The translations under genes and the position numbers were made by a program. Shown here one piece after another: positions 2,540-54,301 of a stretch of DNA of 60,000 nucleotides. The notes under the pieces were generated by a model. The model made no database searches, had not been told where the DNA came from, and worked only from the letters and a program-made list of their open reading frames with translations. The first letter of the stretch is position 1; every line of letters begins with the position of its first letter. The stretch spans positions 622,001 through 682,000 of the forward strand of contig OX442315.1 in the NCBI GenBank assembly GCA_949358305.1, given 5' to 3'. Source of the DNA: Strigamia acuminata. Its lineage: Eukaryota; Arthropoda; Chilopoda; Geophilomorpha; Linotaeniidae.

Positions 2540-5500
2540 ATGGCCTCAACACGCCGATCGAGGCGGGAGCAGGAAGCAGAGATGGAGGAGGTATTTTTTG
2601 TATCAAACATAAGATAAAATCAATTAGATTCCTCTCTTAACGATGTGTGAACGAGAATCCTGGATTGTTGGACTGAGAAAAGTAGTAATGAAGCGGAAAA
2701 AACTCCGAGAAATACATAAAAATAACTAAACGGAAACAGATTCGAAAAAGTTTCGTAAAGCCTTAAAAACATCGCTAAAAATAATATATAAATAGTTATA
2801 AAGCGGTAGTAATAGTTATTACAATAAATAAAATTACTTTTAAGTCAGAAAAAGAATAAAAAGTTAGTAAAAAGCACGTTTTGTGAAACACGATAATTGA
2901 AACCGAGAGCGCCATCTTGTAACCGCTATCGGAAATAAGATAACAAATTCAGTCGAATAAAACAGGGAAAATATTACACATCCGTGAGAGAGAATCTTGA
3001 TTGGAAACGTTGATGGAAAATAATTTCTTTCGTTAACATGTGCCACGATTATTCGCTTGAGAATTCAGAAAATAATGGAGAAACTAGTCACACTAGACCC
3101 GAAAAGTTAACGGATAAAAAATACGGAAATTGAGCCGAAAAAATTATTGCAACTGAGCATAATAAAAGCTAGCTAAGAGCTGTGATGATTATACATTCCA
3201 TAAATGATTAATTTTAAGCGAAAGAAAAGTAAAAACTAAGTTCGCGAAGCGTTTCAATCAAACGCTGACCAAAAGCGCCATCTGGTGGCAATTAATAGCA
3301 TCAAGATGTGCAAAGTTAAGCGACAAAAGCCAAACAAATCGTGTCACACGCACAGAAGAGAGAGTTTATTAACGTAAAATTGAAAATTCGATAGAGAATT
3401 AATTTTGGATTTTATTTATCAGATATTTAGCAAGAATGGATGTCATCGTGGGACAAGCTTCCAGACACAGTTCGAGTACCACCTAACATCTTGCGAGGGA
3501 AAATCCCCGAGTTAGTCTGACAAATCTTTGAAGCCCACGGCTACAGCGCTTGGAGAACACGCAAGTGGCTCTCCCAAGCCGCGACCCGAAGATGGGGCAC
3601 GTACAAAAAAATGAAGCATGGATTTAAGGATTGTTTGTGGGAGCTTGTGAAGGATTTTCTCGAGGCCATCGACCCACCCGGAATGCTATGGAGCCCACTG
3701 CTCGCGGAGGATTTCCCGCTCACCTTCGAGGAGGAGAAGGACTACGGCATTTATTTCAAGCCGGGGACAAACAAATTCCTGTTTTTGCAGGAAATCCGTG
3801 AAAAACTAAAAAGGGACATGATGACTGTCGCGGCTAAATTCATGAAGGAACAGCAAAAGTACCAAGAAGCTCAAGCCAATGCGCAGGGGGAGAACTACGT
3901 CTACACGCCGAACCCAGCAGCCCGCACTCAATACCAGATGCACCAGTTGCACATGGCGGGTGCAATCGGCCAGAACTACGCCCCACAGGACCGACCACGT
4001 ACCACCGAGTATGGCCCCTTGGCGTTCGCTACTAAAACAAGACAGCCAAAAGAGCAACGAGAGTCACCATTCGGAGAAGGGACAACTCGTAGGAGTTGGA
4101 AGCGTCGTCAGATGCGTCAAGCAATTGAGCGAGAAGTAACGATGTCGAAGGACGACAAAAATCAAATTTTGATCCAGATTAAGGGAAGCGACGACCCCGA
4201 CGCTCCAATCATCGCCCTCGACGAGTCTTGGCCTGACGAGCTGGTGCTTGTAGACGAAGCTTCATCCGAGAGCGAAGAGAATTATGAAACACCGGCAGAA
4301 TGGTCGCCGCGACGAGAGACGACTGCGTCATCAGAGCTATGGGATACGCCACCATTAGTCCCACCAGTCTCACCTACACCTACGGAACCTCAGGAGACAA
4401 AGGCGACCGGAGCAATTGCCAAAACAACGGAGCGAACGACTAATAAAACGTCAAGAAAGCGCTCACAGGAGAAAAAAGAAAGATCAAGTCGCGACACGTC
4501 CCAGGACGATAGAACGTCGTCATCAAGACGAGAGGATCAAGATCGATCAAGTCGACGCGAAAAGTCTCGCCGCCGTAGCAGCCAGGCTCGGGCTTCAAGC
4601 AAGAGTCAAATACGGCAATCGAGCCGACCAACTCAATCACGACAACAGAGTCGGTCCAGCGAGCGAGGCAGATCACTAGTCCGACGCGCAAATCCACATT
4701 TGCAACCAATGAGTGAGTTCATTGCGCCTAGAAATCATGCAATTCCCGTGCCCGAGATAGCGTTGTTGCTGTACGCTGACACAATGGCGTTGCAACCGCA
4801 GCCCAATTTTGACATCGGATATTATCAACTATGGGATGACATATTGGCAAACCCACACAGGGCACAGGAAGTACTATCTGCAAGTTTGGACGCATTTCAA
4901 GCAGCGCAGATAAATGAAGCATTAAATGAATTGAGACGTCTGGCAGTGGAATTCTGCAGAAAGCCGTTAGCAGAACAAACACAAAGATGGCTGCAGAAGT
5001 TTCAAAAGCAGATGATTCCCATTCTGACCAGATTGTTGTTTCCAGGGGTATTTCCGGGAAACGAATCGGCATTTGTCGCCGTGAGCATCCTCTGGACGAC
5101 GCCGATGGGGATCCCCAAAGAATTAATAGAGAACTGGGAGTCTGTCCAGTATGACCCCGTCCTATTAAGGAGTATGTTGGTATGTAGGATGTTGTCCAAC
5201 GGGGAAGTAGCTTCGCAAAGTGCATCCAGACTCCGAAATGAATGGCATCAACGTTTAGTTGAAATCTAGGCTCACAGAGAGGCACAAGCGACCGGGCAAC
5301 AAGTGGCAAACTGGAGGCCAGCAGGGGCACCGGCGTGGCTAGCTGCCCAACCTTCTGCCCCACCAGCAGTCCTGACGACTTCAACACGCCAGCCATCTAC
5401 GGACTACGTTCCTGCATCGGATACGGACATGTTTTACTTTCGTGCATCGGCCAACGCAACATTGGTCGGGACCAAACTTCCGATTGAACCAGAGCAGTCG

Positions 5501-5923: not shown

Positions 5924-6156
5924 AGGAAGACCAAGACGGCCTATACTGGGGGTGTATGGGTCAGTCTTATGAAGACCTCCCCAAAAAGAGGGGAAGTGTG
6001 GTGGCCTGTGGTCACCAGGGCAGGTGAAAACAGGAGTAACATTCACAGAGTTGATCTGAAGTTAATATTATTTTAGTATTTTATTATTTTAGAAAACTGA
6101 GACAATAAGTTCTTGTCTGGGGCTGGTTGCCAGGGTAACCAGACAAACAGCTGAGG

Positions 6157-6184
6157 GGTTGGCAGGAAATGCTTCCTGTCAACC
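6157..6184 (+). promoter_or_regulatory. Conserved LTR hairpin
   Basis: A 12-bp stem (GGTTGGCAGGAA with TTCCTGTCAACC, one G.U pair) closes the loop ATGC. Equivalent hairpins with the same CAGGAN core and a four-base loop occur in the LTRs of B (7995-8010) and C (16987-17012) and in the minus-strand solo LTR. Confidence 0.6.
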
Positions 6185-6389
6185 AGGAAGAAAATACAGA
6201 TTTCTTCAGTCTAATACAAAAACCTTTGCTGAACAACACTGAAAATAATTACTCCTGGATTTCTACTGTCAAAACCGGATTAATTTGTGCCTTCAACCGA
6301 GGATTGGACTCATTCTTGTGATACAACATTATTGTGTCACGGGAAATTCATCTTGCCGTCAAGACATTGACGGAGGGATTCATGCAACA

Positions 6390-6700
6390 GTCGAGCCATT
6401 CAAACTACGTCGCGGACGCCATTTGAACCACTCGACGATCGTAACCAAGCCATTCCAACTACGTCGCCGACGCCATTGGAACCACTTGGAAGAATAGAGC
6501 GAGCCATTCCGACTACGACAGAGTCGCCATTGGAACTACTCGTGAGGAGAGGGCCATTCGGACTACGATATCATCGCCATCCGAACTACCCGGGGAAGAA
6601 GTCAAGTTAATCCGAACTACGGTTCTACCGCCATTTGGATTAACACGGTGCAGAAGCAACGCTGCTCGAACTACGACTCGGTCGCCATTCGAGCAAGCGT
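6390..6700 (+). repeat. Array of six covarying hairpins in LTR A
   Basis: The units are 6390-6436, 6445-6489, 6499-6543, 6551-6591, 6606-6644 and 6659-6700. Each has an inner 4-bp stem (CGTC/GACG, CGAC/GTCG, CGAT/ATCG or CGGT/ACCG) with a 3-base loop. An invariant CTA (5') opposite CCA (3') separates it from a 6-7 bp middle stem (TTCAAA/TTTGAA, TTCCAA/TTGGAA, TTCGGA/TCCGAA, GCTCGAA/TTCGAGC and others). In units 1-4 a further CCA opposite CCA or CTA leads to an outer 3-6 bp stem (for example GTCGAG/CTCGAC). Stem sequences differ between units but pairing is kept, while internal-loop bases hardly change. That is seen directly; an RNA role is inference. Confidence 0.8.
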
Positions 6701-7218
6701 GTAGAAGAAACCGAAATTGATCGGTCAGAGATTGAAGAAACTGCGATTGAGCAGCCACAACGAGAGTCATCAGTTGCTGCTGCGGAGAATCGGGAAAACT
6801 GTAAGTGAAGAATACGTTATTCGGACGAAGCAGTACGAAAACGTCGCGTCGACGGGACGAACGGAGCCGGAGACGCCATTTTTATTCCTATTTTCCATTT
6901 TCATTAATAATTCGTTAATTTCTAGTCATTATGTATAATTTTAGAGTTTAATCATTGTAAATCGTTTTTATTAGAGAGAGTTTATTCAAGATTAGAATAA
7001 ATAGCATGTGTGTTTTTTAAGTAATAAGTTTGTTTTATTCATGTTGATTTCCTCAATCGCGTATTGAGTAAATCAATTGTTGTGTTAGTAAGTTTAGTCA
7101 GTTGGAAGTATTAGTTAATTATTAAAATATAAGACCCGTCGGGGCATTGAGTAATTTCCACAGCTTATTTTTGATAATTTGAGTGAGGTTTTATTAAGAA
7201 TAGGCCGGGATTACTACA

Positions 7219-7683: not shown

Positions 7684-8372
7684 TGTGGTGGCCAACTGGT
7701 CACCAAGAGGATTGGAAAAGACATTTTAGTGTTTTATGTGTTTATTCATCGTGTTTTTATAAAACTTTCAAATATATTTAAAGGACATAAATTGAGAAAA
7801 TATTCAGAGTCAATCAAAAACGTTTTTCATGCATATTTATCTAAATCAGTGTAATTCCAAGGATAAATGTCACCATATTTTATTTCCTGCAAAAACTGCT
7901 TTCTTTATTTATTATTTGACATCCTATTGCACAACAGTGAGTCACTTGCAAGCTGCTGCCTAAATTGCCATGACAACCAGCCCTGGATGGTGCACAGGAT
8001 GTGCATCCTGCTCCCTGGAAGATAGAGATGAAGCAATCTAATTTCTCAAAAGGAGTTGTGGTGCAATTTCAACCCAGAATTGTGGGAAAATTGCTCTCAC
8101 AACTTCAGTTCAAGTCTCCTTTTCACCAGTACCAGTCATGTCATATTTTGCTCCAGTGTTTCTACAAACCCAGTAATAATATGGTTGTGATTATCCTGCA
8201 CCAAAGGAATTTGGATTCACCTTGCTGATAGGGTAAAGCAGCTAGGTTTCATCTTGCTAATTGGGATTCATTAGCTAGATATTTGTCTTGCTGCACAGGA
8301 TTTGTCAGCTAGAGTTATCTTGCTCAAACAGCCAGTTTGAGTTGAGATTTCAGAGTTTTGAAGCCAAATTGT
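7684..8372 (+). repeat. Truncated 5' LTR of element B
   Basis: Colinear with 11480-12168 of the 3' LTR and almost identical. It breaks at 8372, after which the sequences are unrelated. The LTR hairpin CAGGAT-GTGC-ATCCTG lies at 7995-8010. Confidence 0.9.
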
Positions 8373-8512
8373 CATACAGAAATTGTGACTTGCCAAAATC
8401 TGCAAATATTTTCGCATTGCGTGACCACAAGGACGTTACAACAGATGTCATTTCACGTTCCAGCATCATCCAAAAGAATCAGAGAAATTTCTGCCAGGAT
8501 AGTACAATCAAG

Positions 8513-11416
8513 ATGAGTGCCCGGCAACTACATGTGCGCTTAAACAGGAGCGACACGCATACGCCAGAACAATTAAAATGCGCACCGAATTCTTTCAGCA
8601 GGTCAAATGTGATAACCAACAGAGATGTGATGGACATTAACGCGACCCTGATAAAGAAATATCATTATTCGTACAGCAGTCCAAGGAAATTGTCATCTTT
8701 GAACGTTCTGGAGTCACCTGACCAGCAGCAACTAGCCAGTAAAAATAAGAGTTATGAGATGATGCGCACTCCGTCGCCAACACATTCACAAGCAGAAAGC
8801 AAGGGGTCAGACACCAGAAAAATTGCGAATTATGATCTTTTGACGAGGGAAGAACTATTGGAGATTGTCAGGACAACAAGGCGACATGTGAAGAAATTAG
8901 AGAGCACCCGCTCAACTCCAAAGAAATTAAAGAGCACCCGCTCAACTCCGAAGACGGAAATGAACGCTTCTTCATCCAACACGTGCACACCATCACAATT
9001 GCACCTGTGTGACATCAGACATCGGATGCAACTACTATTAAACAAGACTCAGGACAGCCTTGATGAGAAGAAGGCACGTCAGTACGCAGAATACATGAAT
9101 GCGGAAATGGTAGCAACTGTAGAACGAAGGACAGCATTTGAAAAATTACGTCTACAGGAGGACCAGTTGATGAAGCATTATCGCATGGAAGACGAGAAGA
9201 TGCGCATGAAAATGGAGCAACAGAAGGTGCTTGCACAATGTAAGAAGTTGGAGATGTCGTTTCGCGACGAGAACGAATACTTGCGCAGAGCAACGTTGCA
9301 AGCTCAAGAAGAGGTGGAAAAGGCCAGACAAGAGCTACAGGGAATAAAGTATGAGGCGCAATTGAAATACTCCACTGCACAACAGACTACAAATGGAACT
9401 ATGACCGAAAATTTGACGGAACTTTTGTTAAAAAGGGGGAGAGAGGTGGATACAGATCAAAAATATATCACGCGGTCAATAACTCCACCCACTCAAAACA
9501 AAAAATTACCCGACGTCATAGATACAAGAAACCAAAAACACACCACTGAAAATAGTCAAAACCAAAAAATTTTAAGGCATGAAACTAGTGATGAAGTAAC
9601 CACAAGGAAAGAGCACAATTCACCAGTGGACTTAAGATTTTCTGAAGTTGCCGAATTGTCATCGCAGGAAGTAACAAAGACTTTCCCATTGCCAAAATCA
9701 CCACAATATGCGATTACAACGGGTGACCAACAACAACAAAGTGTTACTGTGAATTCGAATGACAAGATTTTTCAAAGTAGCAATGAAGATAGCATCCATT
9801 GTGGACAAAGACAACGCAGTTCCAACAAAACACCACCTTCATCATTGCTTGCAACTAATCTTGAGCTGGAATTCGAAGTAGCAATGGAGCCTGCCAAGAA
9901 TGCCTTACAAATATTGTCGACATCTGATAAGGAAAAAGAAACAACATCTGTAGACCCAACTAAATTGGCCATGAATGCATCATGCAACGTTGAGAAAAAG
10001 GAAGCGACCAAGGAGTCGTCGAAATTGGTTACAATTGCATTAAAGAAGTCTGAACAAAAGGAATTGGAATCTCCAGCACAAGTTCATCAAAAAGAAAATC
10101 CTAGAAAATCAGATAACAATAAACGTCTAGTTCGAGCCACGAGAATTATTCGAAAACAATTCGGAAAGATGATCAAGCGGCTGACAGTTAATGTAACGGT
10201 ACAAGATTCCACGCCTTTACTGGAACCAAGTAGTCTGCGGAATTCAGAGTGGCCCTCCAAATATTTCATCATGACACTAAAGAACATACAGGAAAACATA
10301 ACTTCTGAGGACCAACAGGAAGTAAAAGCTCTGATAAAGGAGTGTTATCAGCGAATGGAGTTGGCAAATGAAGCACAAGACACCAAAGCTACCATACTCA
10401 CTGCAGTCACTATCAAGGGTACAGAAAGGTCTCAAGAAAAACCAACACTTGAAAATTCTTGGGATAATTATGGACCTCTAAAACATTCTTGGTTAAATCA
10501 ATCTGTGAAGACATCATTGCCTGAAATGAGGAAATCATCTGCAATAACAGAATCAGGAGCTGATCTACGGTCTACTCATGCAAGATCTACTGCTGCTACT
10601 GATGTGCTATCATCCTATTCTGAAGATAAACTGAACAGGCAGTCACATTCTTCAAAACCACAATTTGTTAGTGCAAATAAGAAATGGAAGGATCCAGCGG
10701 AGAATGAGACAACTGACGGGACTGGATTGCAAATGGAATTGACCTCATCTCGGGGAAAGAAGTCACCAGCGGCAGAAAGTCCAAATCAATTAAGTTCATT
10801 TACCAGGGTTGCCAATTCTTCATTGAATGGAAAGCGGGCGAGAAAGTCAGGAATCGTTCAGCAGCTGTCATCAATTGAATATTCGGCATTAATTATTGAA
10901 AATACTAAACCTCTGCAGACATTGACAACAATGCAAGCCAAAAGTCGCATGGCTTGCGATTACCAGACGAAGATGCTCAGAGTGCAAGATGCCACTACGA
11001 GGAGAGAATTTCATCAGAATGGAAGGAAGGGTCAACCAGTGCCAAAACAGCGATCCCACGGTCAGAGTGAAATGGATCTCCAAGCAGTTAGTCAGCAAAG
11101 TGCAGGCTTGGTGTTGGGATTGTCATCAGCTTCCAATGTTGATGGTGAAACTCAAGATGCTCTTCCCACACTCAAAGACAAGAAAGACAAACTAAATGAT
11201 TCTGTGCTTGTGGATGAGCAAAAGCCAACGGGATGGCATGGTTCTTCAAAAACGAAATCAACGCATTCAGTTGAGCAGCATACGCAGGAAGTTCACTCCA
11301 GGGTGTTTGAACCGACAGCTAAAGACCAATCGGCCAGTGCAATCAACTGCACCCATCGCACAAAGAAGCTAGTTGGGAAAAGCCGTTGGCCAGACTTTAG
11401 TCCAGGAGAGTTGTGA
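8513..11416 (+). CDS. Single long ORF of element B (Gag-N-like, unknown C-terminal part)
   Basis: An open frame of about 967 codons; the first internal ATG (8513, context AAGATGAG) is the likely start, because the frame reads back into the LTR only through the deletion. Residues from about 100 to 350 align with the N-terminal Gag region of element C: (L/M)(T/S)REELL, a charged coiled coil, EYLRRATLQAQEEVEKA, LLKRGRE and ITPPTQNKKLPDVID. The retroviral Gag core and CCHC knuckle of C are absent. The remaining ~600 residues are Ser/Thr/Lys/Gln-rich with a conserved-looking block near RIIRKQFGKMIKRL and no recognised domain. A structural protein mobilised with help from a complete relative is the likeliest role. 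Confidence 0.65.
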   Translation: MSARQLHVRLNRSDTHTPEQLKCAPNSFSRSNVITNRDVMDINATLIKKYHYSYSSPRKLSSLNVLESPDQQQLASKNKSYEMMRTPSPTHSQAESKGSDTRKIANYDLLTREELLEIVRTTRRHVKKLESTRSTPKKLKSTRSTPKTEMNASSSNTCTPSQLHLCDIRHRMQLLLNKTQDSLDEKKARQYAEYMNAEMVATVERRTAFEKLRLQEDQLMKHYRMEDEKMRMKMEQQKVLAQCKKLEMSFRDENEYLRRATLQAQEEVEKARQELQGIKYEAQLKYSTAQQTTNGTMTENLTELLLKRGREVDTDQKYITRSITPPTQNKKLPDVIDTRNQKHTTENSQNQKILRHETSDEVTTRKEHNSPVDLRFSEVAELSSQEVTKTFPLPKSPQYAITTGDQQQQSVTVNSNDKIFQSSNEDSIHCGQRQRSSNKTPPSSLLATNLELEFEVAMEPAKNALQILSTSDKEKETTSVDPTKLAMNASCNVEKKEATKESSKLVTIALKKSEQKELESPAQVHQKENPRKSDNNKRLVRATRIIRKQFGKMIKRLTVNVTVQDSTPLLEPSSLRNSEWPSKYFIMTLKNIQENITSEDQQEVKALIKECYQRMELANEAQDTKATILTAVTIKGTERSQEKPTLENSWDNYGPLKHSWLNQSVKTSLPEMRKSSAITESGADLRSTHARSTAATDVLSSYSEDKLNRQSHSSKPQFVSANKKWKDPAENETTDGTGLQMELTSSRGKKSPAAESPNQLSSFTRVANSSLNGKRARKSGIVQQLSSIEYSALIIENTKPLQTLTTMQAKSRMACDYQTKMLRVQDATTRREFHQNGRKGQPVPKQRSHGQSEMDLQAVSQQSAGLVLGLSSASNVDGETQDALPTLKDKKDKLNDSVLVDEQKPTGWHGSSKTKSTHSVEQHTQEVHSRVFEPTAKDQSASAINCTHRTKKLVGKSRWPDFSPGEL

Positions 11417-16612: not shown

Positions 16613-17914
16613 TGCGGTGGCCGGTGGTCACCGCGAGGAAATTTTAGTTTATTATTTTAATTTTTTCTTTACGGAAGTTGAACCGTTTTATTTGTATTTA
16701 ATAAAGGAAAAAATTTATATTAAAAGTGTTTTTATTTCTTTGAAAATAATAAAAAAGTTTAATATATTCGTTTGTGGAACAAGAGCCCAAAAATAATTTT
16801 AGTAAAATAAACTAAAATTATGGAAAAACTTTTATTTTGAGGAAGGAAAAGCTTTGCATTTTTTAAAGAACCATAAAAATGTAAGAAGTTTAAGTTTTGG
16901 CGAATTTCCTGTTTAATCAGATAAAAAATAGGGAAAGTTTAGTTTTTGTGCCTCGTTACCAGGGTGACGGGCCGGGAGGAAAAGTGGGTGGCAGGAAGCA
17001 TTTCCTGTCACCAGGCAAGAAACGCTCACTTTTCCTCAGTCTGGATTTTATTTTTGAGGAAAACACATCACAACAAACTTGGCAAAATTGGATATATTTT
17101 AGCAGAGTTTTGTGATAAATTTCCCAGTATTTTGGACTCACTTTTCTTGTGTCAGAAACACAGTTTTGACATGAGATATTTCTTGCTGCTTTGATCAGAG
17201 AGCAGTGGGATTTCAGTGAGAGTGTTCTTGCTGTTTCACCAAGGAGACAGTGGGATTTATCATTCTTGCTATTGTGCACTCACAATAGCGGGATTTCATC
17301 GAGGATTATTTGAAGAAGCAGTTGGAGAAAACACTGTGAAAATCCAGTGTTAGTGAGAACCGGAATCTGAGCCGGACATTCTCACGTGTAGCGGAGAAAA
17401 TACGGATTTTAAGCCGTCGATTGGATAGGATTTAATTACGATTGCGGTGAGTCGAGAAATACGTCGGAATTTCGTACGAGTTGAACGAGGACGAGACGTC
17501 GCCATTTGCAGACAACAATTGGCGAGACGACGCCAGTTTCACCATCGCGAACGACGACAACAAGCCATTGTCGCCGTCGATTCTGCATTTATTATTATTT
17601 TCCTTATTTCGTCCTTTCGTAATTTAAGTTTAAATAGTATTGTATAATTTTAATATTCCTTTTTCTTATGTTATGTATATCTAATAATATTAAATATCCG
17701 TTTAAGCATATTAATTAATAGTTGCTTTATTAGAGAGAGATTTAAGAGGGAAATAAATTGATTAGCTATTCGTATGAATTAGTGAATCAATTTAGGGTAA
17801 GATTTTTAGAAGTAATTTAGAGAATAGATATAAGTCCACAGTTTTGGCATTCAAAAGTAGTCTTGGGTTGTGTTTATTGATTAATTTTGATAAATAAGGC
17901 TCAGGATTACTACA
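16613..17914 (+). repeat. 5' LTR of element C
   Basis: Runs from TGCGGTGGCCGGTGG to GGATTACTACA. It contains an LTR hairpin (16987-17012: GGTGGCAGGAA, loop GCAT, TTCCTGTCACC). The six-hairpin array of LTR A is not present. Confidence 0.93.
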
Positions 17915-26020: not shown

Positions 26021-29000
26021 ATGGCTTCAGGAGGCCGAGAACGCCGAGAGCTGAGCAGAATTCGTACGCGCAGACGACGTTCACCGGCGCAAAGAGTTAT
26101 AGACGAGGTTGGTGTATCGAAAATATGTCAATTAAGAATATAAAATATGCGGGACACGGTTTTCTATCAATAATCCGAAATATTATCTCACATAAACTAA
26201 TCAAGTCAGAGCAACTTTGCCGTTTTTTAATATAAAAGCGCATACGGAATATAAGCCGAAAAAATTGCCATAACAAAGGAAAGTAATGAGAGAATAAGTA
26301 AATTTATTTAATAAATGGACAAAAATGAGAAGATTTCATATGATAAAAATCACAAACTCCAAGGAAAAAGATCGGAAAACGGAGAATTTTAATCAAAAAA
26401 GTTCATTAAGGACGCCATCTTGCGTCAGAAAATGTAAATGAGAAAATCGGATTTTGATGAAATTGTGTCTCGTGCATCGGAAAAATTGTTCTTTTGCAAA
26501 GTGTGTGATACAAATTAATGTCAAATAAATGTTTAAGCCTGGAAATTGTCTAGCCAAACTGTCCAAAAAAATAGCACAAATTTGACCGCTTTTAAATAAA
26601 AAAGCGTGTACGGAATTCAAGCCGGTAAATTTGTAGCGAAATAAGGAAGTGTTGATAGACAAAAGTTAAAATTAACAAGTAAACGAAATTAAGAATAGTT
26701 CGTATCAAAAGAATCGAGAAATCCAAAGAAAATAGGACGGAGCGATCTCGATCAAAAAATTTATTAGAAAAGACGCCATCTTGCGTCGGAATATATTAAT
26801 AAAAAACAGACTGACGAAATTGTATCACATACGGCGATAAAGGAAAAACATTTTGTTTCAAATAAGGAGTGTGCGATGCGATTTATTGTGGCCAATTGAA
26901 AAAATCTGTTTCACCAAATAATTAAACAATTCGTAATGAAACACGGTCATTCTGTCGGAGCCAACGCGTGCGGAAGCTAAGCCGAAATAACGTGTTGGTA
27001 ACGAAGAGTGGGAAAGATATAAAATCAAGGAAGTGATTAATAGTCGAAGTTCAAAAGATATTTATTCGAGATTAACTGAGATGTTTTGGAAAAAGAGCTA
27101 GTCTCGGGAAAATTTTAATCAAGTTCGAAATCACGAGCGCCATCTGGTGATAAATTCCGGAACAAGGAGGAAAAAGCAAAGCTTATGCCAGCCGCTTCCG
27201 CCATCTTGTGTCGGCCGTTAGCACTACAATTTCGGACTAAATTTAAAATAATATCGCACACTCATGAATAAATAAAAATGAAATAGGGATGATCAATAGG
27301 ATGTAACAAAATACTAATTATTCTTATTTTATGATGACGCAGGTGGATTTCATGATGGAGACATGGAATGCGATTCCAAACCACATCAAAACGCCAATTA
27401 ACATATTACGGGGAAAAATCCCAATGGTTTGGCGTGCTATTTTTGAGGAACATGGCTGCAGTGCTTGGGAAGCCCGGAAGTGCCTATCGGCAGCAGCTCA
27501 GAAGAGATGGAGGACTGTAGAACCTTTAAAGAAGAAGGCAAAGAAAAAATTCCGTAAATGGTTGGCCAAGTTAGCAGAGATCATAGACACGCCTGGCCCA
27601 ATATGGAACTTATTGCTAGGAGAAGAATACCCGATGACCTGGGAGGAAGACCAGGACTACGAACTATATTTTAGTCCGGGGACGGATAAGAAAAAGTTCT
27701 TGCAAGAGGTTGTAGCCAAACTACGTCGAGGGATGCGGGAGGTGGCGGATAAATTTTTGCGAGAACAAGCTGAGTTCCAGATCGCGAAGGCAGAAGGACG
27801 AGTGACGGATTTTATGCAAAGGCCGGAGTACAAATGCAAGACACAATACCAAATGCACCAGCTGCATATGGCTGGTGTATTGGGGGCAACTGGCGGCGCG
27901 AAACTCAACCAAGAAAATCCATCCAAGTTGGGGCAACCAAAGCAGAAGAGGCGCCAGCGTAATAAGAAAAATAAGAAGTCAGGTCGAGTTGTCACAGAAG
28001 TTAGGCTGACGCATTCCGACAGAAGTCGACTGTTAATCAAGATCAAAGGTTCGGATGATCCGGACACACCAATTTTTCCCCGACTACCAGTGGAAGATCC
28101 GTGGCCAGATGAGTTCCTCATTCTCGACGAGACCGAATCTTCATCAGAAGAAGAACGAGGGGAAGTCCCGGACGACTGGTCGCCGAGGAGGGCACGAGAT
28201 GCGAGCGGGAAACGTCAGGATTCGCCAGCACAAGAAGTATTTCACCCAGCGGAAATGCACATGCGGTCCCAATCCCCGAGAGTGACGAGTACTCATGCCA
28301 AAGGGGGAAGCCAAACTGGAGAAGAGTCGGCGAGACGTCAAGAGGAAGTACATGATATGCCTGAGAACTGGTCGCCGAGGCGACAGGACATCTTAGAACT
28401 TCACGATTCGGATTTATCGTTGCCACTTCCCCCCACCCCGTCGTCAAGGTCATCGTCACCCGAGAGCAGGCCAATAACTGTGCGAAGGAGGTCGTCCAGT
28501 TCGAGGGAAAAGCGAAGGGCCAAGGAGATACCACGACGACCAAAATCAAGACGTGCGAGCCATAGTCAGACATCGCGTCGAAGTAGTCAGCCAGGATCAC
28601 CTGATGGACGGGCAAGCGATCGACCAAGGACAAGCAGTCGTCACGGGCAGCCCCGTCAACAGGGAGAACAACGCGTACAAAGAAAGCAAGAGCTGCGGGC
28701 GGACTCACCAATAGAGGGGGACGAAGAGTTATTCGAGCAGGGGATGGATCCGCACACGCTGCCGTATACCGACTATTTGTCACTCATTAACCACTCTATC
28801 CCGGTCCCAGATGTTGCGTTGATGCTGTATGCAGAAAACACCGCGATGCGCCCGACGGAAGGACACGACAAGGATTACTATCGACTATGGCGCCGATGTC
28901 TAAAGAACCCGGAAGCAGCGCAGAGATTACTGTCCACAAACCTTGATGAATACCAGAAGGCCCAACTTAAAGAAGCTATTAACGATTTGCGGAGACGGGC

Positions 29001-29845
29001 TGTTGAATTTCGGCAACGAGCATTGCAGGACCAAACGGACAATTGGCTGTGGAAGTTCCAAAAAACCACGATTCCGGCCCAAAAGCGACTTTTATTCCCG
29101 GGAGTGTTCGCACACGACGAGGCTGCTTTTGTGGCAGTCAGCATTTTGTGGCTAACACCGATGAACATTCCTACATCTATGATTGGGAATTGGAGGTCGA
29201 TTTTGTTTGACCCCGTGGTCTTGCGGAGTGACCTGATATGTCAAACATTGGCGAATGGAGAGACGTCAACACAGTGCCATGAGAGGTTGAGAAAGGAATG
29301 GGCCCAACGCCTCGAAGAATTAGAATTACAACGGGATGCGGCGACGTTTGATGGTCGTCCCATGAATTGGAGGCCCGCAGGTGCTCCTGCTGGAACGGCA
29401 CAAATGTCAAGATCGAAATCATCGTCGATGCGGAACCAAACTTCGTCAAACTTGGGACAGGCGCAAGGAGTGTCGGAAATTCCACGAGATGACGTCAGCC
29501 TCGTCGAAAAGAAGAGAAAAAATTCAGCTTACGGAAAGATTCGGTATTTCTACAAGGAATTGAAATTTTCAAAGGCAACCCGATCAATTATGATTAATAA
29601 TCCGGCGTTGTGCGAAGAAATCTTCCGTTGGTTAGAAAAGTCCGTACGAGACCGTTACCAAATAGAACAGCATATGCGACTAATATCGGTCCGACGTATG
29701 CCAGAGCAGAGCCAGGAACGCTTCGAGATGGCGTATGACAGCACGCTGCCATTCGTAAAACATATCAAACAGGTGTGGCTGCACCTCAATGAAGGGAGAG
29801 CGTCAGGTCCGACAAAGGGGATGCCACGATTTTCGGTGTCGGAAG
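26021..29845 (+). pseudogene. ORF3 of element C (env position, two exons), 3'-truncated
   Basis: Exon 1 (26021-26107, 29 codons, MASGGRERREL... and Arg-rich) ends GAG|GTTGGT. Exon 2 starts at 27343 after GACGCAG, in phase 0, and is open throughout. Conserved with element A: NILRGKIP, SAW, QYQMHQLHMAG, IKGSDDPD, (D/E)-WSPRR repeated twice, an Arg/Ser-rich middle, IPVPDVALMLYAE, LLFPGVF and VWLHLN. The last ~25 codons of the A version are absent, because at about 29845 the frame runs into host sequence and stays open to 30162, making a chimera. No membrane anchor or enzyme motif was seen; function unknown. Confidence 0.72.
26108..27342 (+). other. Putative ORF3 intron of element C with degenerate tandem repeats
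   Basis: A 1235-bp AT-rich, non-coding interval between a GAG|GT donor and a GCAG acceptor. It holds about three degenerate ~360-bp units, each with a CGG-A-(T/G)-AAGCCG motif (26235-26260, 26615-26625, 26970-26985) followed about 170 bp later by a GCCATCT box (26414, 26775, about 27141; another at 27200). Confidence 0.5.
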
Positions 29846-30729
29846 GGTACACGGATACAGATAAGCTGGCAAAAAATCTGGCGAACCAAAATGGTGAACC
29901 GGACCTGACTTTTCTAACGATGAACGCAATGCAAAATCATCGCGCGTGTTTTGTCCGACTCAAATTCGAGACGACTGCGGGCGTGTCGGTGTTCGATTTA
30001 CCAACTAACAGGACCTTGTTCAATTGCGACGGCGTTCAATTTAGGAGCAGATCGATCGAAGGAGGGGAAAAAAAACATGTTTATGAAGTGCCGTATAAAG
30101 ATTCGCATGCGGTGGAAAAACTGACCTTTACGCTGCAGGGTTACCAACAGGGGCGGATCTAGCTTTTCGGGGGCCCGGGGCTTGAGGTTTTTTCGGGGCC
30201 CCTGTATCGAAATTTTTAATAGCGACCTTCCATCTTTCTTGTTTTTTAGCGACCTTTTTTTTTTTTTTTTTTTAGTACATAGCCCTGCGTCTTGGGGGCC
30301 CGGGGCTCAAACCCCATTAGCCCCTATGTAGATCCGCCCCTGGTTACCAATATCTAACAATGCACAACTGGTGCTTTCGCTTGGGTGCTCGTGCGATTGG
30401 CGAGGACAGCGGTAGAACGTTTTGTATGGGCGCGCACTTACTGTTCATTTGTGCTAGTGTGGATGACAAATACAAGCCGCTTGAAAGGGCAATTCTCGGT
30501 AATTATGCCGAGTTCCGTAACCTTCCACCCGAGACCGCGATCAAGGATTTCAAAATAAATAAGCCTTTCGCGTATGCTCGCAATTTCATCAGATGTAAAC
30601 TCGAGGCCAAGTTGTCGTGTTTGCTCACCATGTGCCGGCATATTCGTCTTCTAACAGCCAATTCGCAGTGTCCTGCTGGTACAACTGGTTGCCCGGATGT
30701 AGTGAACAGACACGACGTGGTGGTAAGAG
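29846..30729 (+). repeat. Second copy of host gene segment inside element C
   Basis: Nearly identical to 15728-16612, including the MITE and its GTTACCAA duplication, and it runs without a break into the 3' LTR exactly as the first copy runs into the 5' LTR. Its left junction interrupts ORF3 codons. It is a copy of 5' flanking host DNA next to the 3' LTR, probably made by LTR-primed gene conversion or break-induced copying. Confidence 0.92.
30148..30342. mobile_element. hAT-type MITE, copy 2
   Basis: A 195-bp copy with perfect 14-bp ends CAGGGGCGGATCTA and TAGATCCGCCCCTG, between GTTACCAA repeats (30140-30147 and 30343-30350). It differs from copy 1 at eight positions plus the T-tract length. 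Confidence 0.92.
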
Positions 30730-32029
30730 TGCGGTGGCCGGTGGTCACCGCAAGGAAATTTTAGTTTATTATTTTAATTTTTTCTTTACGGAAGTTGAAC
30801 CGTTTTATTTGTATTTAATAAAGGAAAAAATTTATATTAAAAGTGTTTTTATTTCTTTGAAAATAATAAAAAAGTTTAATATATTCGTTTGTGGAACAAG
30901 AGCCCAAAAATAATTTTAGTAAAATAAACTAAAATTATGGAAAAACTTTTATTTTGAGGAAGGAAAAGCTTTGCATTTTTTAAAGAACCATAAAAATGTA
31001 AGAAGTTTAAGTTTTGGCGAATTTCCTGTTTAATCAGATAAAAAATAGGGAAAGTTTAGTTTTTGTGCCTCGTTACCAGGGTGACGGGCCGGGAGGAAAA
31101 GTGGGTGGCAGGAAGCATTTCCTGTCACCAGGCAAGAAACGCTCACTTTTCCTCAGTCTGGATTTTATTTTTGAGGAAAACACATCACAACAAACTTGGC
31201 AAAATTGGATATATTTTAGCAGAGTTTTGTGATAAATTTCCCAGTATTTTGGACTCACTTTTCTTGTGTCAGAAACACAGTTTTGACATGAGATATTTCT
31301 TGCTGCTTTGATCAGAGAGCAGTGGGATTTCAGTGAGAGTGTTCTTGCTGTTTCACCAAGGAGACAGTGGGATTTATCATTCTTGCTATTGTGCACTCAC
31401 AATAGCGGGATTTCATCGAGGATTATTTGAAGAAGCAGTTGAGAAAACACTGTGAAAATCCAGTGTTAGTGAGAACCGGAATCTGAGCGGACATTCTCAT
31501 GTGTAGCGGAGAAAATACGGATTTTAAGCCGTCGATTGGATAGGATTTAATTACGATTGCGGTGAGTCGAGAAATACGTCGGAATTTCGTACGAGTTGAA
31601 CGAGGACGAGACGTCGCCATTTGCAGACAACAATTGGCGAGACGACGCCAGTTTCACCATCGCGAACGACGACAACAAGCCATTGTCGCCGTCGATTCTG
31701 CATTTATTATTATTTTCCTTATTTCGTCCTTTCGTAATTTAAGTTTAAATAGTTTTGTATAATTTTAATATTCCTTTTTCTTATGTTATGTATATCTAAT
31801 AATATTAAATATCCGTTTAAGCATATTAATTAATAGTTGCTTTATTAGAGAGAGATTTAAGAGGGAAATAAATTGATTAGCTATTCGTATGAATTAGTGA
31901 ATCAATTTAGGGTAAGATTTTTAGAAGTAATTTAGAGAATAGATATAAGTCTACAGTTTTGGCATTCAAAAGTAGTCTTGGGTTGTGTTTATTGATTAAT
32001 TTTGATAAATAAGGCTCAGGATTACTACA
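30730..32029 (+). repeat. 3' LTR of element C
   Basis: Runs from TGCGGTGGCCGGTGG to GGATTACTACA and is followed by the AGAG target copy at 32030-32033. It is not preceded by a polypurine tract, unlike the LTRs of A and B. Confidence 0.93.
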
Positions 32030-39255: not shown

Positions 39256-40168
39256 TGTAGTAATCCTGGATCCTAATTACTAAATTAACATTCAAGATTG
39301 ACTATTGAATGCCTTACAGGTCTTATATCTTAAAAAACTACTTCTAAAACTCTACAAAAACCTCTAAATATTCAAAAATACTTAGATTACAAGTCCCAGA
39401 ATTGATTGACTCTTTTATACAAATGAGCCAAGCAATTCTTTCCTCTAATCCTCTAAAGAACAACTATTCTTTAATCTTATAACAAACTATCTTAGTTTAT
39501 TCTGGCGACGCGAGAAATTCACATAAACTTACACGAATTCCTGTTGATGTTCTTCTCATACGGACGGCTAAAAATCCGTATCTTTCTGCTGCTCGTGAGA
39601 ATTTTCGGCTTAAATTCTGAATCTCACTAACACTGGACGTGCTCAGTGTTTTCTTAACTCCTTCTCGGCACAAATCTCACGATCACGCACCGTGATCGCA
39701 AGAATAATATCTATCCGTTGCACGTGGCGATGGCCAGATGAAATCTCTCGGTGAATTTGCGTGTTCACCGCAAGATGCAAAATATCCCACAGTACTGGTG
39801 CAGTACTGCAAGAAAATGAGTCTAAAAAGTGTAGAAAATAACCACAAACTCTGCATGAAATTCAGTTAAAATCAGCTAAGTTTTCCCGTGGTGTTGTTTT
39901 TCTCAAGTTTCCAATCAGACTGAGGAAAAGTGAGCTTTTTTGCTTGGTGACAGGAAATGCTTCCTGCCACCCACTTTTCCTTCCTGCCCGTTGCCCTGGC
40001 AACGAGGCACAAAAACTGGTTTCTTCCTATTTTTTATCGCTCTTATAGAAACTAGGAAGTTTTATTCGACCGAATTTAAGCTTTTTTACATTTTTTATAG
40101 CACGGCTAATAATTCGTAAAAATCAAAATAATAAAAATAAGTCTCCTCGGTGACCACCAGCCACCGCA
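39256..40168 (-). mobile_element. Solo LTR of the element A/C family
   Basis: On the plus strand it starts TGTAGTAATCCTGG and ends GACCACCAGCCACCGCA, the reverse complement of an LTR beginning TGCGGTGGC. It has an AGGT duplication at 39252-39255 and 40169-40172. The conserved LTR hairpin is present, with GGCAGGAAG/CTTCCTGCC-type arms near 39945-39975. LTR-LTR recombination has removed the interior. Confidence 0.92.
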
Positions 40169-49417: not shown

Positions 49418-52400
49418 CTATTTGTCTATCACAAAAATGTACTCGCACAGCGCGTTCAACCGGGACTTTGCTAACCATTTCGTTAGGATATCCGCGACAT
49501 TTAATTCGCCGGAAACATGCTCGATCAAAAACGTTCCTTTCTCAAACCAATCTCTAACGAAATGGAGCTTCACGTCTATATGTTTATTTGCCCTGTTCTC
49601 GATCCTATTCTTACAGTATTGGATAGCCGGCTGGCTATCCGCAAAAACACAGGGCGTATTTCGCTCGAGACAAAACATTATCTTCGCGTCGTAAAGGCGC
49701 TCGAGCCAAATAACTTCTTTCACCCCATCGACCACGGCGAGAAATTCGCTCTCCATGATCGACAGGGAGGTCATCGATTGTTTGTGGCAATTCCACGAGA
49801 TGGGAATGCCACCCATATAGACAATATGTCCCCCAAAGCTTCGTTGTCTGTCTTGATCTAGGGCAAACGACGCGTCGGTGTAAACTGTCAAATTCTCGTT
49901 TTTACAGTTCGATAAGTTAATCGAATAATTCGACGTGGTGGCCAAATATCGCAGGACCTGCAGTAACATATTGACATGGCGCGGCGAATGCGTCTCGTTA
50001 TACTGGGAAAGCACTATTACTGAAAACAGTATGTCGGGTCTGGTTCGGCTGACGATGAACAATAGACTTCCGACCAGAGATCTGTACGGGAATGAAGTAT
50101 CGACTTTTTCCCCGGTTCTTACACTTTGAATCATGGTTCCCGGGGTTACTGGAACTTTTACTCGATGGCACGAGTCAATCCCGTATGCTTTACAAAGCTT
50201 TTCAATATATTTCCGTTGGTGGATTTTAATCATGCCCCCGGACCTATCAAACTCGATTCCTAAAAGTAAAGTTACGGGTCCCAGACTCACTACTTCAAAC
50301 GATTCCCGTAACCACTTCAAAACGCATTGTTCCACATAGTCATCCTTCGAGAATAGCACGATATCGTCCACGTAGAAGATGACTATCGCGTCGTTGTCTA
50401 GGGCATAGACACAGTTTAAACCCAACAACGGTTGAAAGCCCAATTCAAGTAGTCGTATGTGGAGGACCTGGTACCACATACGACCGGACTGGTGTAATCC
50501 ATAAAGTGCTTTTAAAAGCATCCAGCATTTATGCTTATTATGGGCGGTACGATATCCCTTGGGGATCTCCATGTACTGTACCGTATCGAGGTCCCCGTAA
50601 AGGTACGCGGCCTTGATATCCAGGTGTAAATCCCGCCATCCCTTGAGTATTACCAAAGTGCAAAAGAACACTATCACTAGCACAAAGTTGACGACGGGGG
50701 AGAACACCTCCGTAAAGTCAACTCCGGGCTTTTGCTTAAAGCCCTGTGCGACGAGTCGGGCTCGGTAGCGTTGGATAACACCCGTGTGGTCGCGTTTCAT
50801 TTTGTATATCCATTTCGATCCCAAGAGAGTCGTACCCTCGTCTAAAGTTGTTTTGTCAACTTCCTTGTAAACCGTTCTTTCATCGAACACATCAATTTCC
50901 TCTCTCATGGCTTTTATCCAATCAGGACGCTTGATGTGGTACATGGCTTCTTCGTAGGTTTCTGGCTCGACGGCACAGAAACCTGCAAACCCTAACGGTT
51001 CACCGTCCCCCTCTAATGTCTTAAAGTCAAATAAGGTCGCATCATATGCGTACCCTTCTTCATCGCACCACCGTGCGATATCAACTCGACTTCTTATCTT
51101 GTCCTTTAAGGGCGTGATGTAAACAACATCTATTTGTCCCGCCGTCGCTCCGTCTTTACGGACGGATGCGCGTCGTTCCCATTCCGCCATATTTAACGGC
51201 AGTAGTTCCGGATGTAACATCACGTTCCCTTTCTTTTTCTTTGATCGTGATCCACGCCGTGTTTGAATCCCAGGAGGAATTTCAGGTTCCCCATCATTGT
51301 CAGGATAGATGTTGAAGTAATTCCCATCATCCCCCTTCGCCCCACCAATTTCTTCAACAGGCTCATCCCCTGTATCCCCATCCCCAAGAATAGGGTTCCC
51401 CTCAACGGGCATAAGTGGGGGTTGCTGAGCTGCCTGTTTAGCGACTGGCCTCAATTCAGGTCTAAAAGTAGGCTTTGGGGTCGTGGGCAATGCGGGTTTC
51501 ACTTTTTGCTGCGGAACAGGTTGTGGAACTTCCTGTATCGCAGGAGGGGGTTTCGGAATCCCCGGAACTTCTAGGACTTTCAGGATCTCCGGAGCTTCCT
51601 TAATTATTGGGTCGGCAGCAACACTGTCGTTGTCAGAAAATGACCCATTGAACGAGTCCGAACTCGACGTATCAAAGTCATCCTCAAGTTCAGGCGGCGT
51701 GGCCGTCCCTAATTCAAACCAGAAATTGTTCTCAAATATCTTGACGTGTTTAGACAAAAACACCTGATTTTTATTCGGATCCCAAATTCTATAGCCGCGT
51801 GTAGAAGCGGCGTACCCAACTAATGCCCCAGCCCATGCCCTGTCTTGTAATTTCCCACCCCGAGTCTGAGATGGGATATGGACATAAGTTAATGAGCCAA
51901 TGCACTTGACATGGAGAAGGGACAATTTCTTATTATAAAACACAGAATAAGGTGTTTTCCCACCAATTCCCGTATGTGGAAAACGGTTTTTCAGATATAC
52001 AACTGAAACGGCAAGCTCTGCCCATAAAGTGGCGGGAAATTTATTCTCAAAAAGAAGTGCCCGAGTACCATTAAGAATGGTACGGTTCGCCCGTTCGGTG
52101 ACCGAATTCATTTCTGGGCTGTATGCATTAGTCCTCATACACTTAAGCCCAATTGTCGCCACATAATTGTCCCATTGTCTAGATATGAACTCCCCTCCAT
52201 TATCAGTTTTTATGGCCTTTACCTTCTTAGAGGTCGTTCGCTCAACTTCAAGTAGCCACCGCTTGAAATGTCCTAAAACGTCACTTTTCCGTTTCATGAT
52301 AATTATCCACATAAAGCGGGAAAAATCATCGATGAGAATGAGATAATAGTACGCCCCACCCAATGTTTGAACTGGAGCGGGGCCCCACACGTCTAAGTGC

Positions 52401-54301
52401 ACTATTTCCAAAATACTTTTTGTCGTAATTCCAATTATTGGGGGAAAACTAGCACGTGTGCTCTTCGCCCTGGCGCAAGAGTCACACGTCGACAACTCCT
52501 TATTCGAGAGTTTCAGCCCAAAAACATCAGTTGACTTTTCTAAACCCGCAATTCCCTTTGCATTTAAATGCCCTAAGCGGGAGTGCCAAATGTCCATCGT
52601 TTGAGCCTTATCTTTCTTGTCAAAAGTTTTAACCCCATTAGTAGAATTTTTCCCATTCTCTGCATTGTCTGCTTTGTTCTGCACAATTGAACTTGCCTCC
52701 TTAGAGGCATTGGCAGTCTTTGCCTTGATTTTATTCGAAACATTCGCTTGCGCATTAGTCGTAACATTCGCAGGCGCGTTGTTCGCAACACTCGCTTGCC
52801 CCTTTATCGCTGGTGCAGGTTTCCCTGACTCACTCGAATTTTGGGTTAATGCGTCCTTAAAACTAGGGTATGTTAGTATCGAATTTACAACTTCATCGCC
52901 TTTTATAAGCGGACTAGAAGACAATGTCGCAGCCTGTTGCGCAGGTAATGCGGCAGTGTTCACAGGAGAAATACGACAATTGACCTTATACATCCGATCA
53001 CTCGTGCGTTCCGCAGTGATGGAAGGGTCATCAATTTTGTCGTTATAAATAACCATTTTGCCATTTTTAATCATGGTCGTTGCCCCAGCTTCATCCGTGC
53101 GACCCAACGAAATCAAATTCTTCCTAAAGTTGGGTGCATAAAATACATTTTGCAATGTAAGTGCACGGGTGCGGGTTCCGTAAATCGATGTCAATGTCAC
53201 ATTTCCTATTCCTTCGATTCTCGACTTTCCTTCTCCCTGTTGCACGTGGCCAGTTAATGGCTTGAAGTCGGAGAACCAGTCTTTGTTGAAGGAGAAATGG
53301 TCCGTCGCCCCTGTGTCGACGTACCATTGCGAATCATAATTCGCGTGAGACACGTGGGAAGCCGGCACAGGGGGTTGTTGTTGAAGCCAAATCGCCGCAG
53401 AGTAATAAGAGACTGGAGAGTCGCTGAATATGTCAGCCTGTGTGACAGCGGCCTTTTGCTGGCCCCTTCCACGTCCCTTGCCCCGTGGATTGCCTCTAAA
53501 TTGTCCAGTTTGGTTCCCTTTTGGTTGGAATTGCTGTTTCGGCGGAGTAGGGCATTCACGGGCGAAGTGGCCCGTCCCACCGCAAGTAAAACAGATGCGT
53601 GGGCCGCCGGGTGCATTGCCACCACGTCCACGTTGTCTTCCGCCTTGGTTAAAGAAAGCGCCAGTGCTCTCCAATGGCGTCTTGGAAGGCACGCCAAACT
53701 CGTCGGTCGTTACATGCAAGCGGTTGTATTCGCCTACCAGGCGTTCCTTGACCGCTGCTGCCGTGAACTCTGCGTCACCCCAGTGATAAACCGTCTGCTT
53801 GACCGGTTCGTATTGGGGTGGCAACAGATCGAGGTATTGAAAGGCGTGAAACTCGTCCGTAATGTTTATCTTGACGTCGGCAAGTTGCACGACCTTTCGG
53901 TCAACTCGTGCGGTGAAAACGAACATTTCTTCGTTTTCATGCAACCGCATGTCCAAAAATTCCCGGCGAAGACGGGCTTTACGTGCCCGTGTCGTGGGCT
54001 GGTAGGCAGCTTTCAGTGCCTCCCACACCTCCTTAGCAGTGGCTTGGGCGACAGCCACGACCTGTTGGGCCTCGCCGCAAGCCAAACAAATGGTGGAGCG
54101 AGCCCGTTCTTCGCCTTTCTCAAAGTCCCTTGTCTCTCGAAACGGTGATCCGGCCGGCGGCTCTTTGGTCTTGCCGGTTACGTGGCCCCAAACACCGTAC
54201 GATTGGAGGAGGAGCTGGACTTGTACGCTCCAAGTCGGGTAGTCGGTACCATCCTACTTTCTCACGTCCTTATAATCGTCGTGGCGCTCATATGACGCCA
54301 T
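49418..54301 (-). pseudogene. Gag-Pol polyprotein of copia element F, one early TAG
   Basis: Order Gag, CCHC (CFTCGGTGHFAREC), protease (VDTGATDH), integrase (HHCC region ending CDSCARAK; D,D,E in LDVWG, TDNGGEF and VTERAN), RT (HLDIKAAYLYGDL, FYVDDIVLF) and RNase H (YTDASFALDQ, ADSQPAIQY, KHIDVKLHF). Integrase before RT is the copia order. The likely ATG is at 54301 (MASYERHDD), but codon 16 is TAG (54254-54256). Past it the frame is open for 1600 codons, with the usual copia Gag start (DGTDYPTW, GVWGHVTGK). One stop in an otherwise perfect frame suggests a very recent loss or a sequence error. Confidence 0.9.

Follow-up and report, generated by a model that had tools for sequence, protein, structure and literature searches.

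Tandem hairpins of two kinds were shown, by comparison of genomic copies, to occur in the long terminal repeats (LTRs) of large Ty3/gypsy-type elements of one lineage, where the pattern of their changes indicates selection to pair as plus-strand RNA. Type 1 is a variable 6-bp stem beside a fixed CYA/CCA 3x3 internal loop, which is closed by fixed A-U and C-G/G-C pairs; it is present in 2-6 copies per LTR in element A and its relatives. Type 2 consists of a UUCUUG 5' foot, a variable 6-8 bp stem, a loop, the complementary stem strand and a YGRGA 3' foot; its stems are mutually unlike, its base helix contains a near-invariant U.G wobble (42 of 44 rows), and 1-4 copies per carrying LTR were recovered by the parser. 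The window is the whole stretch of 60,000 nucleotides analysed; L-numbers (L009, L030 and so on) denote loci fetched from the same genome, in which 237.5 Mb were searched. The features are listed in Table 1, where R2 is the type-2 model (R1 being that of type 1).

Table 1. Hairpins and LTR landmarks in the window.
Feature	Position	Strand	Basis or remark
3' LTR of element A, TGTGG...TACTACA, Ty3/gypsy-type	5997..7218	+	BLAST of genomic copies, common block 5996/7-7218
X-box-like palindrome CTGGTTGCCAGGGTAACCAG, U3, upstream of initiator motif	6123..6142	.	LTR alignment; comparable sites in B, L079 and third LTR
Second U3 palindrome GGTTGGCAGGAAATGCTTCCTGTCAACC	6157..6184	.	LTR alignment; also in B and third LTR
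TCAGTC, probable transcription initiator, inferred R start	6206..6211	+	conserved in at least 10 of 11 aligned LTRs
Type-2 hairpin a (UUCUUG-stem-CGGGA)	6312..6346	+	R2, E 4.8e-5; strict scan
Type-2 hairpin b (AUCUUG-stem-AGGGA)	6349..6380	+	strict scan; weak in R2, E 0.3
Type-1 hairpin unit 1	6390..6436	+	outer internal loop present
Type-1 hairpin unit 2	6444..6490	+	outer internal loop present
Type-1 hairpin unit 3	6498..6544	+	outer internal loop present
Type-1 hairpin unit 4	6548..6594	+	outer internal loop present
Type-1 hairpin unit 5	6602..6648	+	without outer internal loop
Type-1 hairpin unit 6	6656..6702	+	without outer internal loop
GTAAGT, probable 5' splice site ending leader exon	6801..6806	+	conserved in at least 10 of 11 aligned LTRs
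AATAAA, probable polyadenylation signal	6996..7001	+	LTR alignment
Element B 5' LTR, four type-2 hairpins	17143-17178, 17179-17212, 17224-17257, 17262-17295	+	R2, E 2.5e-4 to 5.8e-10; strict scan
Element B 3' LTR, same four type-2 hairpins	31260..31412	+	strict scan; R2
Third LTR, three type-2 hairpins	39783-39815, 39744-39775, 39673-39705	-	strict scan; fold

In the 3' LTR of element A, the six tandem hairpins claimed by the sequence-only reading were present and folded as described, and the stem sequences it had cited were correct. Each unit carries a triloop on a 4-bp inner stem, a CTA/CCA internal loop and a 6-bp middle stem. Only units 1-4 add an outer CCA/CYA loop followed by an outer stem of 3-6 bp; in units 5 and 6 the helix runs on in place of that loop, with a bulge in unit 6. 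As an account of the whole row, the six-unit description was incomplete, since two type-2 hairpins precede the type-1 units.

Covariation was judged against shuffled arms and slid structures. All 60 cells of the middle and inner stems of the six units were paired, compared with a mean of 50.1 of 60 when the 3' arms were swapped (p 0.0017); one spurious parse of L031 was left out of the arm-swap test. Over three helices, 89.6% of cells were paired (70.1% after shuffling), the covariation score was 0.604 (0.232 after shuffling, with 0 of 500 shuffles reaching the observed value), and 12 pairs showed two-sided changes against 5.9 in shuffles, while slid versions of the structure paired only 24-44% of cells. 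The fold of 6385-6710 on the plus strand reached -103 kcal/mol (z -3.9), and 0 of 100 shuffles were equally stable. A coding role for the array was considered and found unlikely, as all six reading frames of 6380-6710 are interrupted by 2-6 stops each.

Using the array as a query, at least 30 scored places were found in the genome, 21 at 94-100% identity, one at 88%, one at 75% and seven as shorter alignments at 69-78%. The sequence-only reading had proposed that unpaired stem changes at the neutral rate among LTR copies would speak against selection; instead, when orthologous units were compared across eight LTRs, pairing survived 12 of the 15 changes seen in stems, and the triloop varied freely. 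These changes were counted by hand from aligned states and are unpolarised (no tree), with the outer stems of units 5 and 6 excluded and some of the eight LTRs not having every unit. Ten created or abolished a G.T wobble, two were two-sided (A-T to G-C in unit 4 and T-A to C-G in unit 5) and three broke the pair, one giving C.A. On the plus strand, one-sided changes gave G.T ten times and A.C once, with a binomial p of 0.006 if the strands were equal, a value qualified by the relatedness of the copies.

Among five LTRs, variable sites inside the units amounted to 1/36 in the inner loop, 5/72 in the middle stem, 7/48 in the inner stem, 5/48 in the outer stem, 4/24 in the outer loop and 7/18 in the triloops. 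Outside the units, they amounted to 4/31 in the linkers, 11/98 between array and donor, 47/132 in the pre-array leader and 200/630 in the remaining LTR. The low variation of the array is therefore partly regional, as the linkers and the array-to-donor stretch reveal; inside the array itself, variability is lowest in the loop module and highest in the triloop.

In diverged LTRs (L030-L037, L076, L086, L090), the stems and even the length of the inner stem have changed and the CYA/CCA module is kept, also where the inner stem has 9 bp or the loop is larger; in L030, a longer nested stem carrying the same modules stands where the first units would be. The mosaic LTRs L030, L034 and L035 have diverged arrays fused to 3' stretches near-identical to that of A (6801-7218), and such mosaicism suggests recombination between families. 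On the minus strand of L090 (~1040-1206), six near-identical tandem copies of CCATTCGAACTAC, a palindromic version of the type-1 arm, were observed.

An alignment (A1) of 33 of the 35 distinct 47-nt type-1 units, selected partly by pairing, gave a covariation score of 0.484 (0.207 in shuffles; 0 of 500 reaching it), with 99.0% of cells paired in the middle, 96.2% in the inner and 67.2% in the outer helix. Two of five measures, the number of pairs with two-sided changes (86/500) and of pair types (252/500), were not above shuffles. Invariant columns of A1 cluster at the inner loop (A15, C16, A18, G20 and C28, G29, C30, C31, A32, T33, plus G36), and a consensus fold of the 33 units with no structure supplied recovered the middle and inner stems, not the outer stem. 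Genome-wide, the type-1 pattern matched 130 times against once in the reversed control, and a second pattern 102 times against none. Some first-pattern matches lay outside type-1 arrays. Among those fetched, L079-L085 were rejected as type-1 carriers, giving only weak partial R1 matches (E 0.017-0.45) and carrying type 2 instead, and L087-L089 and L091 were rejected as lone pattern matches of neither type, with no array. Stems that diverge yet pair, a conserved loop module and concordant arm-swap and shuffle controls bear out the proposal of a selected RNA structure, and we regard the reading of the type-1 row as a selected plus-strand RNA structure as well supported.

The hairpins in the LTR of element B were first revealed by folding. 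The array had been said to be missing from the LTRs of B and C; this holds for type 1, of which R1 found only the six units in the window up to E 10, and fails for type 2, which stands in tandem in B and in a third, minus-strand LTR. The R2 training set contains three of the four hairpins of B. In the third LTR, absent from training, R2 recovered 39783-39815 (E 1.3e-7) and 39673-39705 (E 1.2e-6) and missed the middle one. A scan of both strands of the window for UCUUG followed by GRGA after any base but G gave 21 foot pairs; in 13 of these the feet flank a stem with 6 or more pairs in a row. Every one of the 13 fell into three LTR types, namely A (2), B (4 per LTR) and the minus-strand LTR at ~39.4-40.2 kb (3), and the same scan of shuffled LTRs of A and B (200 each) found none. 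Elsewhere in the genome, type 2 is carried by the L079-L085 family, L086, L104, L105, L111 and others.

The alignment A3, with 13 of 18 distinct 34-nt type-2 units selected partly by pairing, had 99.4% of cells paired (77.6% in shuffles) and a covariation score of 0.771 (0.309 in shuffles); pairs with two-sided changes (93/500) and pair types (29/500) were not above shuffles. A4, which leans to its own model, holds 53 model matches, including an antisense one in L104; its 44 distinct matches had 98.8% of cells paired against 76.3%, and again two-sided changes (338/500) and pair types (295/500) were not above shuffles. Arm permutation on parser-derived units is circular, as the parser requires pairing, and was not counted as evidence.

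In the least biased test, only the feet of two successive type-2 units were fixed; this pattern had 277 genomic matches against one in the reversed control. The 60 of 277 matches listed comprised 42 distinct strings, 31 with at least 6 consecutive pairs and 11 without; of these 11, five were minisatellite, three near misses and three unrelated. With the five minisatellite strings removed (from the arm permutation only), 168 of 180 cells were paired in the 30 distinct arm pairs among the matches listed, compared with a mean of 98.4 after arm swapping and a maximum of 128 in 20,000 permutations. Stem cells of type 2 showed G.T over A.C at 11:1, and at 12:1 in the feet-only matches listed.

By gene order, TG..CA LTRs and a primer-binding site, the host is classed as a Ty3/gypsy LTR retrotransposon. 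Element B has the domain order Retrotrans_gag, gag-asp_proteas (sub-cut-off), RVT_1/RNase H, H2C2 and rve; in the part of element A inside the window, only rve scored above the cut-off. The putative primer-binding site TGGGGGCC, 2 nt past the LTR and common to A, B and L080, resembles, we presume, that of tRNA-Pro-primed retroviruses. A CCHC knuckle is encoded 10 nt beyond the stop of the gag ORF of B in the same frame, which points to a Gag-type RNA-binding domain that is at least encoded; no CCHC was found in the 930 residues read of the Gag frame of L092, which ends at the locus edge. The presumed partner 5' LTR of element A lies outside the window, in L009, with 1219 matches and 2 mismatches to the 3' LTR. 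Among ten LTR pairs compared, eight had no mismatch, the window's own pair two and one pair four, and many element copies accordingly look recent.

The first named relatives of the reverse transcriptase of B were from Lasius, Trichogramma and Camponotus (best 120 of 449 matches, most of them nameless). Contig C1 starts with CCTAA repeats, CCTAA/TTAGG presumably being the arthropod-type telomere repeat. Bdelloid TelKA elements were considered and rejected on the grounds of the CCTAA/TTAGG telomere repeat, of hymenopterans as the first named Pol relatives, and of a word search of PMC5408684 in which no hairpin terms came up.

Start, donor and poly(A) site of the LTR were assigned from motifs alone (Table 1). 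TCAGTC is also found at 17036 in B and at 39923 (minus strand) in the third LTR, and TCAGT in L079; the first type-2 hairpin follows the first base of TCAGT by ~106 nt in A, 107 in B, 108 in the third LTR and 114 in L079. GTAAGT recurs in the third LTR at 39532 (minus strand) and was not found in the LTR of B; in element A, both hairpin types end upstream of this conserved motif. In the genomic RNA, the hairpin rows would be part of the untranslated leader (R) and hence present at both ends. With the ATG of the Gag frame ~119 nt beyond the LTR end in L092, the unspliced leader is predicted to exceed 1 kb. The two U3 palindromes, of which CTGGTTGCCAGGGTAACCAG is taken by us to be of the X-box/RFX type, lie upstream of TCAGTC and are largely conserved in sequence, and the described hairpin rows begin downstream of it, as would be expected if the former were DNA sites and the latter RNA.

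Several further observations concern the coding content of the window. ORF3 of A (3611-5269, plus strand) and of B (27331-30162, plus strand) has an Arg/Ser-rich middle by eye and possibly encodes an element-borne RNA-binding protein; neither gave a Pfam match, and that of A had no database homologue at E <= 0.001. The minus-strand ORF at 57063-58487 is rich in Cys, and its start looks, by eye, like a signal peptide; over 116 aa it is 32% identical to the C-terminal region of ORF3 of B. At 49418-54085 (minus strand), a Copia-type polyprotein ORF contains a methyl-CpG-binding domain (PF01429, E 1.7e-8, above cut-off) between SH3-like and reverse transcriptase domains. The segment 7682-12168 holds a 1042-aa ORF (8288-11416) with no Pfam match, which extends from one of two direct repeats of 691 bp with 99.7% identity almost to the other.

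Readings in which the sense RNA is not the selected form were weighed against the substitution pattern. As a DNA element, each type-1 arm would be one CCATTNNNACYAC site of an insulator or enhancer array and the hairpin look incidental; CGCCAT in the arm presumably resembles the YY1/Pho core, and L090 has its near-identical palindromic motif six times. The ten CCAT[TC] occurrences in 6390-6702, spread over ~313 bp, also recall the 340-bp, 12-site gypsy insulator as described in the available text of PMC2374998. Arms that covary within units, a plus-strand excess of G.T far above A.C and type-2 stems that share no bindable sequence all speak against this, as does the Su(Hw) consensus YRYTGCATAYYY, which at up to one mismatch occurs 3 times in the window (12.25 expected by chance) and not in 6390-6702. 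We consider a DNA element quite improbable, and the inverted half-sites for a dimeric factor that had been held open as an alternative are disfavoured by the same covariation and wobbles. Selection on the antisense strand would give near-continuous type-1 duplexes with 22-nt arms and a role in small RNAs or an antisense transcript. The antisense fold is indeed more stable (-145 kcal/mol, z -6.8) than the sense fold, because C.A/A.C loop mismatches become G.U pairs there. The stem changes decide otherwise, as in both types they yield sense G.U (10:1, 11:1 and 12:1), unpaired on the antisense strand, and almost never A.C; most of the array of B (windows within 17168-17347) moreover beats shuffles on the sense strand only. 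An antisense origin of the selection is thus very improbable, and the hairpin structure and its plus strand are well supported by comparison of the copies. That the rows are functionless tandem or inverted duplications, a by-product of mutation, would fit their variable copy number and the mosaic LTRs; it is scarcely credible given diverged stems that remain paired, conserved loops beside free triloops and the 277 to 1 ratio of the type-2 feet-only pattern.

For the function of the sense RNA, we favour, at a probability of roughly 0.4, a multivalent docking array on the element's own genomic RNA, packaging being its most likely use and export the next. This is suggested by a fixed module, freely changing stems and a variable copy number: the variable stems would merely hold fixed non-Watson-Crick modules in shape, the modules would be the protein contacts, and several tandem copies would mark the RNA of the element. 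Capture of the marked RNA by Gag is the first choice, since the signal would sit on the element's own RNA, copy number could set the avidity for Gag and a CCHC knuckle lies near the gag of B; export of unspliced RNA would come second. Lying upstream of the predicted donor, the array would also be present in spliced RNAs, which disfavours a signal selecting unspliced RNA and counts against packaging, though MMTV Gag can use such sites (PMC8096270, in the part available). It is doubtful, though conceivable, that the whole lineage uses an RNA code in which the two interchangeable hairpin kinds form a countable multivalent address, read by Gag or by the Arg/Ser-rich ORF3 and similar to Rev/RRE or packaging systems, with independent evolution. 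Dimerisation via kissing loops, one of the roles raised by the sequence-only reading, is disfavoured because the apical loops are neither conserved nor palindromic (among 19 of them, no palindrome of 6 nt and one of 4 nt). In a nuclear export element akin to the constitutive transport element (CTE), hairpins with internal loops would recruit a host export receptor for unspliced genomic RNA, which would need exporting given the predicted 5' splice site after the array; units 1-4, with two internal loops in two-fold symmetry about the middle stem, resemble the MPMV CTE in this respect (PMC4330393). We hold this to be unlikely, as internal loops are missing from type 2, a leader position is not required for export, and the AAGACA of the CTE was not found in the internal-loop columns of A1, which are mostly CYA/CCA; the single AAGACA of the LTR (6361) overlaps an apical loop and is altered in L029. 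Control of translation or splicing, with the hairpins shaping the leader so as to mask the donor at 6801 or to allow internal entry or shunting, would suit an inferred leader of more than 1 kb and an array directly 5' of the donor; we judge it improbable, as such control would have no obvious need of a fixed module repeated many times on variable stems, and families differ in copy number.

With the hairpins resolved to single base pairs and dozens of stem variants already present in nature, at least 30 distinct type-2 arm pairs among the 60 of 277 matches listed, much of the mutagenesis has been carried out by evolution. This opens packaging, export or translation control to direct tests in a non-drosophilid retroelement, and further genomes can be searched with the two hairpin models. 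Little is known of the cis-acting RNA of Ty3/gypsy elements; according to the available part of a 2016 review, the RNA structure of Ty3 was uncharacterised and its packaging sequences not precisely defined (PMC4974528).

Structured leaders as such are known. For two tandem hairpin types across several LTR families, no description was found in the part of the open-licence literature that could be searched, which is weak evidence of absence, and a search there for covarying RNA hairpins in LTR retrotransposons brought up only plant retrozymes. Rfam 15 gave 0 families in the window at the gathering threshold and 0 at E <= 1 for 6200-6860, and for 17030-17420 only a sub-threshold minus-strand mir-266 match. 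The type-1 pattern had 0 matches in viral contigs, and no tRNA or tmRNA was found in the window.

Among known systems, the Drosophila gypsy insulator (~340 bp, 12 Su(Hw) sites in AT-rich surroundings in the 5' UTR; PMC2374998, as excerpted) is likewise an array of short motifs of similar length in a gypsy element and differs in that the arms here covary as RNA stems. A retroviral kissing-loop signal has a conserved palindromic apical loop, whereas here 7 of 18 triloop sites vary. In MMTV packaging, Gag binds a purine loop and the primer-binding site, and the sites may be common to spliced and unspliced RNA; structures in the leader RNA are shared with the present case, unlike a tandem repeated module, which the accessible text on MMTV does not describe (PMC8096270). 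The Ty1 RNA has a highly structured 5' end and is, as here, a case of cis-acting 5' RNA in an LTR retrotransposon (PMC4974528, in part). The MPMV CTE, a retroelement RNA, is one long stem-loop with two conserved AAGACA loops in two-fold symmetry (PMC4330393; PMC7551171; both in the portions available). Type-1 units 1-4 are like it in that CCA-6 bp-CYA reads alike 5' to 3' on both strands; units 5 and 6 and type 2 have no two-fold symmetric loops, and in place of one stem-loop the LTR carries short hairpins in tandem, six at most, with CYA/CCA loops, together with type-2 hairpins free of internal loops.
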